Below are positions 24,934 through 29,957 of a stretch of 64,000 bases of DNA, piece by piece; within the stretch, counting starts at the first letter, position 1, and the number at the start of each line of letters is the position of its first letter. This DNA is from Gemmatimonadota bacterium. Its GTDB lineage: Bacteria; Gemmatimonadota; Gemmatimonadetes; Gemmatimonadales; Gemmatimonadaceae. The stretch lies in NCBI GenBank assembly GCA_023249375.1, contig JAHFCT010000016.1, positions 1-64,000 of the forward strand. The letters run 5' to 3'. Made by a program: the position numbers and the translations under genes. The notes beneath the pieces are model-generated. The model was not told where the DNA came from and did no database searches. It saw only the letters and a program-made list of their open reading frames with translations.

Positions 24934-25545
24934 TCAGCCGTCGGGGCACAGGAGAAAGCGCAGCGGCCAGTCCCGCGCTTTGCTGATGCCAATGCGCGGT
25001 GTGACCAGCACGCGGGCATCATCGACCGGCACGCCCTCGAGAATGCGCAGCGGCGATCCGCGCAGAAGATCGGCACCGTGATGCGTGGGGCCGTCGATTC
25101 CAAAGGCGACGCAGAGCTTTCCCGGTCCGTCAGCGAGCGCGTGTTCTGAGAGCGCGCGCGCGGCGACGTGGCGTCCGCGCCGCGCGTAGCGCGTCCGGCT
25201 CGCTTCGCGCCGGTGATGCATCGCGTCGAGCCCCGTCAGCGGACGCACGCCGCGAATAAGCACTGCACTCGGCATGCCCTCGGCGCGTGTGACGGCGTTC
25301 ACGCACCAGTACATGCCGTAGATGAAGTAGACGTACGCGGTGCCCGGCTTGCCGTACAATCCCGCCGTGCGCGCGGTGCGGCCCGCCGCCGCGTGACAGG
25401 CGGGGTCGTGCTCGCCGAGGTAGGCCTCGGTCTCCGAGATGATACCGCGGCACGTCACGCCGTCGCGCGTGCATTCCAGGATGCGTCCAATGAGATCGCG
25501 CGCGACGATTTCTGTCTCCCGATCATAGAACTGGCGCGCGAGCAC
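24934..25545 (-). CDS. 3-methyladenine DNA glycosylase, AAG/MPG family
   Basis: About 203 residues from GTG 25545. The frame is open to 25617, but a perfect terminator hairpin (25558-25586) lies in that extension, so an early start is unlikely. Family landmarks: ARDLIGRILECTRDGVTCRG, IISETEAYLGEHDPACHA with the catalytic Glu, GKPGTAYVYFIYGMYWCVN, VLIRGVRPLTGLD and DGPGKLCVAFGID. Flips out and removes alkylated purines in base-excision repair. It sits directly downstream of the NYN/LOTUS gene on the same strand. Confidence 0.92.
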   Translation of the reverse strand: MLARQFYDRETEIVARDLIGRILECTRDGVTCRGIISETEAYLGEHDPACHAAAGRTARTAGLYGKPGTAYVYFIYGMYWCVNAVTRAEGMPSAVLIRGVRPLTGLDAMHHRREASRTRYARRGRHVAARALSEHALADGPGKLCVAFGIDGPTHHGADLLRGSPLRILEGVPVDDARVLVTPRIGISKARDWPLRFLLCPDG

Positions 25546-25557
25546 GCGCAACGCAAG

Positions 25558-25586
25558 ACGCCGCGTCCCCGAGGGGGACGCGGCGT
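25558..25586 (-). terminator. Perfect 13-bp hairpin terminator after the NYN/LOTUS gene
   Basis: ACGCCGCGTCCCC and GGGGACGCGGCGT are perfectly complementary around a 3-nt loop, read on the minus strand 33 bp after the NYN stop and followed by CTTGCGTTG. The T-tract is weak, so read-through into the glycosylase gene is possible. Confidence 0.7.
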
Positions 25587-25619
25587 CCTGGTCACGAAGA
25601 ACGCGAACGCGCCGCACGG

Positions 25620-27437
25620 CTACGCGGCCGAGGCCTTCTTGGCAGCCGGCTTGCGACCGCGCCGGGCTTTCGGTGCGGAGGCAGCCTTCGGAGCGGCGCT
25701 GCCGGCCTTTGGCTCAGCGTGCGTGGGCGCTGCGACGGCCTTGACCGGCTTGCGGCCGCGACCGCCCTTCTTCGCCGAAGCCGTCGCCAGCGCCGCACTC
25801 GGCGCGGGAGCAGCGGGCGCGGCAACGGGAGCCGGTGTGTCGTCGACAACACCCAGCAGCAGCAGCGAGGGCGGCAGCTTGGCGCCGCGGCCGCCCTTGC
25901 TGGGCAGCCCGCGGCCAGCGCCGACACCGCGAGGAGCAGGCGCAGCGACGGGCGCCGGGGGCGCTTCGGCTTTGGCCTGCGCTTCGGCGGCGTGGAGCTG
26001 ATCGGCGACGCTGACCGTGCCCTCGACGCGCGACACTTCAAACGAATCGCCGCGTCGCCGCACGTCGACCGCGCCCGCGTCGTGCGTGTCTCGCAGGATG
26101 CGCGTGAAGTTGCGCTCGCTCAGCGACTCGCTGTCGCGGCCGAGCAGTTCGCGCGCCTTGACGCGCACGGCCTCGGCCAACGCCGACGCGTCGCCCTTGG
26201 CGAGTGCCTCGACGGCGCGCTTGACGAGCGAGAATGCCTCGTCGCGCGTGAGGCGCACACCGGCGACGCCGATGGTTGCGTCGACGACCGGCGCCGCAGG
26301 ACGACGTTCGTGACGCGGATGGTGCGGTGCGGCGGCAGGCGCGGTTGCGAGCGGCGCGGCATGCGGGGTCGCGTGAGGTGCAGAGACCGGCTTTGCCGCG
26401 GGAGCGGCAGCAGCGGACGGCGCGGCAGCGGATGGGGCGGCAGCGGCCGGCGATTCGCCGATGGCTTCCGGCCGCGGCTCAGCACCGCGCTCTCGGCCAC
26501 GGCCGCGACCACCGCGACGTCCACGACGACCGCGCGACTCGTCTTCATCACGCGGCGCGCTGGCGGCGGCAGCGGGGGCATCGGCCGGCTTCGGAGCATC
26601 CTTGCGGCCCGCAATGGGCAGCGAGACTTCGAGCTGACCGTTCTCGAGCTTGGTGACGTGGATGAGCCCCTTGTGCGAGGCCTCCTGGCAGAAGCGCGAG
26701 AACTTCGACATGCCGAGGTTCTTTTCGTCGAACGTCGGGTCGACTTCCTGCATGACCTGCTTGAGGCGGTCGGAACGCATGACGTCGCCGTTCTTCGACA
26801 TGCGGGAGATCGCTTCGGTGACCAGCTCCCACGGATCCCACTTCTGCGCCGTCGCTTCGTCGCCCGTCTTCACGAGGCCGGCGAGCGCGTTGTAGCTGTA
26901 GTACTCGTCGCAGTTCTGGACGAGCAAGTCGCTGGAGGACTCGCGAATGCCGACGCCGATGACGTATTTGCCGTATTCCTTGAGCTTCAGCACGAGCGAC
27001 GAAAAATCCGAATCGCCCGAGAGCAGGATGTACGTGCCGATTTCCGGACGCGTGAAGATGAGCTCCATCGCATCCACGGCGAGTCGGATGTCGGTGGCGT
27101 TCTTCTTGGACGAGCCGTACGCCGGGGCGAAGATCAGGTCGATGGACGACTCAGACAGCGGCACGATGTACTGCGGATACCGGCGCCAGTCGGCGTAAGC
27201 GCGCTGGACGGCGACCTTGCCGCTGATGATCTCGGATGAGAGCAGGTTGCGCAGTTCCGTTTGGAGATCGGAGCGAATGCCCATCGTGACGTTGTCGAAA
27301 TCGATGAGCAGGGCGGCGTTGGGCGCGGCGTGCGGGGTGGTAAGGCCGGCAGCCGCGTGGGCAGCCGCTTGCGGTCCGCGGTGAAGCGGAGCGACGGGGG
27401 CGCGGAGCGTGGTGCTCCGCAGGTGACGATTGTTCAT
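25620..27437 (-). CDS. NYN-domain/LOTUS-like RNA-associated protein with AT-hook-like tail
   Basis: 605 residues. Residues ~41-185 form a NYN (LabA/DUF88) PIN-like domain with acidic residues in LIDFDN (D46, D48), NATDIRL (D116) and SGDSDF (D142, D144). Residues ~201-274 (DPWELVTEAISRMSKNG ... VMQEVDPTF ... FSRFCQEASHKG) match an OST-HTH/LOTUS domain, and ~396-471 form a second weaker one. Between them is an Arg/Gly-rich patch (~301-318) and a long Ala/Pro linker; the end has GGRGRKP and RRGRKP AT-hook-like motifs and a Lys/Ala tail. This order resembles MARF1-type RNA regulators. A role in RNA cleavage or silencing is inferred; bacterial functions are largely unknown. Confidence 0.88.
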   Translation of the reverse strand: MNNRHLRSTTLRAPVAPLHRGPQAAAHAAAGLTTPHAAPNAALLIDFDNVTMGIRSDLQTELRNLLSSEIISGKVAVQRAYADWRRYPQYIVPLSESSIDLIFAPAYGSSKKNATDIRLAVDAMELIFTRPEIGTYILLSGDSDFSSLVLKLKEYGKYVIGVGIRESSSDLLVQNCDEYYSYNALAGLVKTGDEATAQKWDPWELVTEAISRMSKNGDVMRSDRLKQVMQEVDPTFDEKNLGMSKFSRFCQEASHKGLIHVTKLENGQLEVSLPIAGRKDAPKPADAPAAAASAPRDEDESRGRRGRRGGRGRGRERGAEPRPEAIGESPAAAAPSAAAPSAAAAPAAKPVSAPHATPHAAPLATAPAAAPHHPRHERRPAAPVVDATIGVAGVRLTRDEAFSLVKRAVEALAKGDASALAEAVRVKARELLGRDSESLSERNFTRILRDTHDAGAVDVRRRGDSFEVSRVEGTVSVADQLHAAEAQAKAEAPPAPVAAPAPRGVGAGRGLPSKGGRGAKLPPSLLLLGVVDDTPAPVAAPAAPAPSAALATASAKKGGRGRKPVKAVAAPTHAEPKAGSAAPKAASAPKARRGRKPAAKKASAA

Positions 27438-29072: not shown

Positions 29073-29347
29073 TGCAGCCGGGGGAAACGATGGTGGTGCT
29101 GGGAGCGCTGGCGGTGATCGGTGTGGTCGCGTACCCGCTGGCGGTTGCCTGGGCACGCAAGATCGAGAGCGAGGCCAAGCGCGCTGAGCTGCCGGGCGGC
29201 GCGGATCGCATCGCGCGCATGGAAACCGTGCTCGAGGCGATGTCGATTGAAGTGGAACGCATTTCCGAAGGACAGCGATTTGTCACCAAGCTGATTGCCG
29301 AGCGACCAGAGGGCGCGCAGCTGCCGCCCGGAGGAGCATCCCGATGA
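29069..29347 (+). CDS. Small membrane protein, paralogue 1 of 3
   Basis: 92 residues. One N-terminal membrane helix (TMVVLGALAVIGVVAYPLAV), a basic stop-transfer stretch, then a helical coiled-coil-like segment RIARMETVLEAMSIEVERIS followed by EGQRFVTKLIAER. Its ATG overlaps the kinase stop (ATGA) and its stop overlaps the next paralogue the same way, so translational coupling is likely. The helical segment is nearly the same in all three proteins. Family unknown; the position suggests a partner of the kinase or regulator. Confidence 0.85.
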   Translation: MMQPGETMVVLGALAVIGVVAYPLAVAWARKIESEAKRAELPGGADRIARMETVLEAMSIEVERISEGQRFVTKLIAERPEGAQLPPGGASR

Positions 29348-29625
29348 ACGGCCCAGAAGTGCTGGTTCCCATCGCGTTCTTCGCGATGGTGGTCACCATT
29401 GTCCTCGGCGTGCCGCTGGTACGTGCGCGCATTCGCGAGCGGGAGCGGCATTCGTTGCCGAGCGCCGGCGATCCGCACGCTGACGAGCGGCTGGCGCGGA
29501 TCGAAGCCGCGGTGGAGTCGATTGCGATTGAGGTGGAGCGGATTTCGGAAGCGCAGCGGTTTACGACGAAGCTGCTGTCGGAGCGGTCGAGTGCGTCGCA
29601 GGCGCCGCCGGCGGAGGGACGATGA
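29344..29625 (+). CDS. Small membrane protein, paralogue 2 of 3
   Basis: 93 residues; ATG overlaps the previous stop by 4 bp and is preceded by GGAGGAG. A membrane helix (VLVPIAFFAMVVTIVLGVPL) then an Arg/Glu-rich linker and the shared segment RLARIEAAVESIAIEVERIS, EAQRFTTKLLSER. Tail is Ser/Pro-rich. Clearly duplicated from its neighbours. Confidence 0.85.
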   Translation: MNGPEVLVPIAFFAMVVTIVLGVPLVRARIRERERHSLPSAGDPHADERLARIEAAVESIAIEVERISEAQRFTTKLLSERSSASQAPPAEGR

Positions 29626-29957
29626 TCATCCACGCGGGCGTGCTGCTCGCCGCGCCGATGGCCAATACACCAGTCGTTCTGCAGGCCGGTAGCGAGGACG
29701 TTGCGATCGTCGCCATCATCTTCGGCACGGGATCGATGATCCTGGTCCCGCTCGTCCGTGCGTGGGCGCGGCGGCTCGAGAACCGCGGCGCGCCGACGGC
29801 GCTTCCGCTTCGCGACATCGAGGATCGACTGGATCGCATCGAGCGGGCGGTGGAGTCGATCGCGGTTGAAGTGGAGCGTGTGTCGGAGGGACAGCGCTTT
29901 GTGACGAAGCTGCTCGCCGAGAAGGCGCCCGCGCAGATTCCTCCATCCGACCGGTGA
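29622..29957 (+). CDS. Small membrane protein, paralogue 3 of 3
   Basis: 111 residues, the longest copy, with an extra N-terminal hydrophobic stretch (MIIHAGVLLAAPMANT) before the membrane helix (VAIVAIIFGTGSMILVPLV). The shared helical segment is RLDRIERAVESIAVEVERVS, EGQRFVTKLLAEK. Overlaps the previous gene by 4 bp and lies 7 bp before the regulator gene. Confidence 0.85.
   Translation: MIIHAGVLLAAPMANTPVVLQAGSEDVAIVAIIFGTGSMILVPLVRAWARRLENRGAPTALPLRDIEDRLDRIERAVESIAVEVERVSEGQRFVTKLLAEKAPAQIPPSDR

Follow-up and report, generated by a model that had tools for sequence, protein, structure and literature searches.

We find that a gene in a window of 64,000 nucleotides from a Gemmatimonadota contig, the whole stretch of DNA analysed here, encodes a protein that, judged by its domains, is a member of the bacterial NYN/DUF88 plus OST-HTH (LK-nuclease) family, with an N-terminal NYN nuclease domain followed by two LOTUS/OST-HTH domains. 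The protein type itself has been known since 2010; what is new is its spread through 140 of 150 sampled Gemmatimonadota genomes, the adjacency of its gene to one for a methylpurine-DNA glycosylase (MPG), and the presence of a helix-hairpin-helix (HhH) domain in relatives from families f4-f7. As a single joint judgement, held with confidence a little above even, we propose that the gene is vertically inherited, occurs as a single copy and belongs to the core genome of the window organism's class, and that its product would act as a stand-alone NYN-LOTUS endonuclease in RNA decay or RNA quality control.

Table 1. Features of the NYN-LOTUS locus in window coordinates
Feature	Position	Strand	Residues	Basis or description
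NYN-LOTUS CDS	25620..27437	minus	605 aa	ATG to TAG; order NYN, LOTUS1, RG-rich linker, LOTUS2, conserved short motif, basic K/A/P-rich tail
Conserved N-terminal motif PVAPLHRGPQA, before NYN domain	27366..27398	minus	14-24	conservation in Gemmatimonadaceae orthologues
NYN (PIN-like) nuclease domain	26895..27317	minus	41-181	PF01936 E 9.8e-26
LOTUS/OST-HTH domain 1	26616..26837	minus	201-274	PF12872 sub-threshold; relatives over cut-off; pLDDT >90
RG-rich linker (RGRRGRRGGRGRGRER)	26487..26534	minus	302-317	arginine conservation
LOTUS/OST-HTH domain 2, diverged	26025..26252	minus	396-471	hhalign with LOTUS1 profile; relatives' PF12872 matches; winged-helix model
Conserved short motif PAPRGVG..RG....PPSLLLLGVV, disordered region	25845..25943	minus	499-531	orthologue conservation
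Basic K/A/P-rich tail	25623..25787	minus	551-605	occupies place of HhH domain in class-level relatives
GRGRKP, AT-hook-like motif 1	25746..25763	minus	559-564	present in window protein
RRGRKP, AT-hook-like motif 2	25647..25664	minus	592-597	present in window protein
MPG gene, directly downstream of NYN-LOTUS gene	24934..25617	minus		PF02245 E 3.6e-61

The open reading frame delimited by the first-pass annotation was recovered with exactly the same coordinates, on the minus strand, intact and complete (Table 1). It is the one NYN gene found in the source genome, a Gemmatimonadota genome of 3.8 Mb whose nearest relatives are Gemmatimonas/Gemmatimonadaceae metagenome-assembled genomes. Over 822 aligned bases, the window gene and that of relative L006 differ at 16, 2 and 62 first, second and third codon positions, respectively, and we therefore take the protein to be under purifying selection. 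Conservation begins ahead of the NYN domain: residues 16-24 of the N-terminal motif are mostly 80-100% conserved among Gemmatimonadaceae orthologues, with R20, G21, P22 and A24 invariant in 49. Two assemblies (L027 and L057) carry the LOTUS-2 part out of frame with the NYN part, by a sequencing frameshift or a real disruption.

The NYN domain scored 91.4 bits against a Pfam PF01936 cut-off of 24.2, giving the protein the N-terminal NYN/DUF88 domain that characterizes the bacterial LK-nuclease family. The catalytic acids earlier read as intact (D46, D48, D142 and D144) show no substitution in any of the 112 aligned sequences from the phylum, nor does D116, the fifth NYN acid. Among solved structures, the DUF88 protein VPA0982 (2qip) is the nearest in sequence; the 2010 description of the bacterial family likewise used it (PMC2848206). 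Against the NYN family TIGR00288, the protein fell below the curated cut-off (32.7 bits versus 178.45). AlphaFold, applied to the full-length protein, left the NYN domain unfolded (pLDDT mostly <50), probably because the alignment there was too uniform, and active-site geometry therefore cannot be quoted from the model.

For the two LOTUS-like domains of the first-pass annotation, a search with the OST-HTH profile PF12872 bore out the first, at sub-threshold strength (residues 209-266, E 9e-4, 19.4 bits versus a cut-off of 23.8), and gave no direct Pfam match for residues 396-471 in the window sequence by itself. Distant Gemmatimonadota orthologues exceed the cut-off at both places, with two matches per protein in G034 and G032 and whole-protein scores of up to 51 bits over two matched stretches, and the second domains of 24 of 37 relatives match PF12872 individually. 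A LOTUS-1 model built from the window's family detected the second domain of five relatives (L082, L089, L090, L097 and L098) at E 1e-10 to 1e-13; the LOTUS-2 model detected second domains in several of the same relatives, that of L090 at E 1e-11. Compared as phylum-wide profiles, the two domains match each other across their entire length (hhalign 99.4%, E 1.9e-21), a figure that is partly selected, as many rows of the LOTUS-2 profile were collected with the LOTUS-1 model. Because of this homology to distant orthologues, together with the profile-profile alignment, we assign both regions to OST-HTH, and the computations show that the two winged-helix domains arose by internal duplication.

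LOTUS has a general winged-helix fold. In the AlphaFold model the structural elements of both regions follow one another as in a winged helix, with pLDDT mostly >90, the order in LOTUS-1 being helix-helix-helix-strand-strand at pLDDT >90. By fold comparison, the solved structures nearest to the LOTUS domains are the DNA binders linker histone H1 and ORC/Cdc6, with Oskar LOTUS nearly tied. Fold searching was set aside as proof for LOTUS-2, which matches many winged helices at tied scores and is thus uninformative in this respect. Single-profile PDB searches with each of the two LOTUS alignments returned no LOTUS entry among their matches.

Proteins that join an NYN/DUF88 (LK-nuclease) domain to single or duplicated OST-HTH domains were described in bacteria in 2010 by Anantharaman, Zhang and Aravind, who predicted a stand-alone RNA-degrading enzyme (PMC2848206); the architecture is thus not new in bacteria. 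With that family the window protein shares the N-terminal NYN/DUF88 domain, the one or two OST-HTH domains after it, the stand-alone gene and the prediction of RNA nuclease activity. To it the window protein adds the RG-rich linker between the LOTUS domains, the PP.LL..GVV motif and the basic tail, while its class-level relatives add a C-terminal HhH domain; the conserved MPG neighbour is a further difference. The terms "hairpin", "HhH", "glycosylase" and "Gemmatimonas" are absent from the text of the 2010 description (PMC2848206), and the literature searched held no description of an HhH domain or MPG linkage for the NYN-OST-HTH family, although reports elsewhere are possible. Also comparable are NYN domain-containing proteins from proteobacterial plasmids (Caballeronia, Eleftheria), which are 33-36% identical over NYN and LOTUS1 and show a Pfam NYN match with a sub-threshold OST-HTH match; they differ in length (391 and 497 aa), in having no second OST-HTH or HhH match, and in having no adjoining MPG gene.

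The likeness to animal MARF1 pointed out in the first-pass annotation survives in outline, in that NYN, LOTUS and an RG-rich element are all present, but not as a specific resemblance. MARF1 has RRMs between NYN and LOTUS, whereas the window protein has no Pfam RRM match up to E 10; it has two LOTUS domains rather than the eight of MARF1. Its RG-rich stretch lies between LOTUS-1 and LOTUS-2, not C-terminal to both. Nearer in layout is Arabidopsis DNE1, a eukaryotic, DCP1-associated protein with NYN and two LOTUS domains that acts on mRNA as an RNA endonuclease (PMC10226599). The NYN domain of human MARF1 (Limkain b1) is itself an endoribonuclease that cuts single-stranded RNA (PMC6294520). Because MARF1 and DNE1 both act on RNA, RNA is by analogy the most likely substrate of the window protein as well.

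We suggest that the NYN acids would coordinate a divalent metal and make endonucleolytic cuts in nucleic acid, and that substrate binding would fall to the two LOTUS domains, the RG linker and the basic tail; the likeliest substrate is structured or G-rich single-stranded RNA. The protein would then play a role like that of MARF1 and DNE1 in eukaryotes without being an orthologue of either. LOTUS and G-rich RNA were reportedly the subject of work by Ding et al. in 2020. Binding of G-rich RNA by LOTUS, on which the first-pass annotation also drew, is a published lead that reaches us through papers citing it (PMC10226599). Action near DNA, on nascent transcripts, RNA:DNA hybrids or damaged nucleic acid, is also possible, because the gene has a conserved MPG neighbour and its relatives carry an HhH domain.

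The gene is typically present in one copy per genome; among the 150 genomes sampled, it is absent from family f8. The form of the C-terminus varies with lineage. Each of the 31 relatives sampled from the other families of the class, f4-f7 (among L123-L174), has a C-terminal HhH domain at or near its end, 15 of them matching Pfam HHH_5 (PF14520) at E <=0.01. A profile of this domain detects XPF endonuclease (E 8e-6) and then topoisomerase V, RuvA and DNA polymerase IV; some solved HhH proteins are, however, ribosomal (uS13). No HhH domain was detected in the window protein with Pfam, in its family (62 sequences) or in 19 sampled members of its order, where a basic tail stands instead, and the window protein thus lacks the C-terminal HhH domain of the XPF-like DNA-repair nuclease layout. 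It is possible that HhH represents the ancestral C-terminus.

The MPG open frame starts within a few bases of the NYN-LOTUS stop codon, and in 114 of the 115 genomes that have both genes on one contig MPG is the next gene downstream, on the same strand. In the sole exception, G124, a separate LOTUS-like segment precedes MPG by some 1.3 kb; in this single-contig genome the NYN part and the LOTUS-like part lie 0.6 Mb apart (C1:1765839-1766456 and 1126823-1127050), and the gene may have been split by rearrangement or misassembly. An NYN gene occurs without an MPG match in 18 genomes, and MPG without NYN in 2. MPG is the most persistent neighbour, since it is found at 11 of 11 compared loci, as against 5 for aroB (3-dehydroquinate synthase) and 7 for an AMP-ligase, both upstream. 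In distant families (L123, L124, L127, L128 and L132), aroB and an acyl-CoA-synthetase-like AMP-ligase, named by sequence inspection, precede the NYN gene. Because gene order around the locus is generally conserved too, the arrangement suggests, rather than establishes, a functional linkage between NYN and MPG.

Several of these observations run against RNA as the substrate: the solved structures nearest in fold to the LOTUS domains bind DNA, the kin of the relatives' HhH domain act on DNA, and the neighbouring gene encodes a DNA glycosylase. They would suit a nuclease that works with MPG on damaged or structured DNA, to which the LOTUS domains, the HhH domain of the relatives and an H1-like tail would bind, a reading that we regard as unlikely yet worth real weight. 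The constancy of the MPG neighbour and the array of DNA enzymes found by the HhH profile argue for it, as do the resemblance of the K/A/P-rich tail, by inspection, to H1 tails and the membership of NYN in the same fold superfamily as FEN/5'-nucleases. However, the NYN-LOTUS proteins that have been studied are RNases, the window protein itself has no HhH domain, and some solved HhH proteins are ribosomal; each of the two genes also occurs in some genomes that show no match to the other, and with aroB and the AMP-ligase fairly conserved as well, the gene order may be passive. Nor is an obvious repair step missing from the genome, because two Nfo-type AP endonucleases are present. The idea that the NYN-LOTUS protein is the genome's missing AP endonuclease was rejected on the same ground: no Xth was found, but the two Nfo genes are there. 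We put forward still more tentatively that NYN-LOTUS-LOTUS and MPG could form a conserved functional pair in Gemmatimonadota, in which a LOTUS-guided nuclease would act on alkylated or structured DNA or on RNA:DNA hybrids.

Within the RG-rich linker, R307, R308, R313, G314 and R315 are each conserved in at least 90% of 67 relatives, and R307, R308 and R315 are nearly invariant. The short motif that follows LOTUS-2 has the consensus PAPRG(M/V)G...PP.LL..GVV; its residues G504, G529 and V531 are invariant in 49 orthologues, and it is partly recognisable in L085 and L086. The tail is probably disordered, and its lysine/alanine/proline-rich composition is common within the order, although its sequence is not kept. 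Both GRGRKP and RRGRKP stand in the tail of the window protein where the first-pass annotation placed them, but their reading as AT-hooks does not extend to the orthologues: among 67 relatives just 6, nearly all of them close, have a motif of the RGRP/RGRKP/GRKP type in the tail, so that the AT-hook is ruled out as a defining feature and a K/A/P-rich basic tail is the more widely common character. Long low-complexity RG and K/A/P regions are typical of RNP-forming proteins, and the PP.LL..GVV motif resembles a protein-binding site, as would be expected if the protein bound RNA or acted as a scaffold and its NYN fold had a structural or regulatory part, with little activity as a nuclease. We consider this improbable, as the invariance of five acids in all 112 relatives would be unexpected in a dead enzyme. 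A role as an anti-phage defence or other conflict nuclease, to which the occurrence of OST-HTH domains in predicted conflict systems (TERNS3; PMC8195603) might point, is very unlikely, given that the locus matched no PADLOC model of a known defence system and that its conserved gene order and near-universal single copy in the phylum are the opposite of what patchy defence genes display.

The RNA endonuclease that we favour would belong with the NYN-LOTUS proteins whose silencing or degradation of mRNA has been studied in animals and plants; functional tests of the bacterial forms were not found in the literature searched. With a single-copy gene carried by 140 of 150 genomes, the role of a bacterial NYN-LOTUS protein can be tested cleanly by genetics, and the MPG neighbour and the HhH version point to a test with alkylation damage, which is absent from the proposals of the 2010 description. 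If the pairing with MPG is true, it would move a domain pair of RNA silencing into nucleic-acid repair.

Further features of the locus deserve mention. A perfect 14-bp hairpin (GACGCCGCGTCCCC...GGGGACGCGGCGTC) lies on the minus strand between the NYN and MPG genes, at about 25558-25588 of the window, and 8 of 38 MPG-bearing relatives have hairpins at this junction, whose stem is often ACGCCGC; the element could be a terminator or a processing site. Other neighbours in the window are a divergent histidine kinase and, further along, a sigma-54 response regulator, which among the distant loci examined are common only to the closest family. Between the kinase and the regulator lie three short tandem open reading frames (about 80-110 aa; window 29100-29957). 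The one scanned (29622-29957) had no Pfam match, and at least two of the three are alike, their tblastn matches coinciding at many loci.
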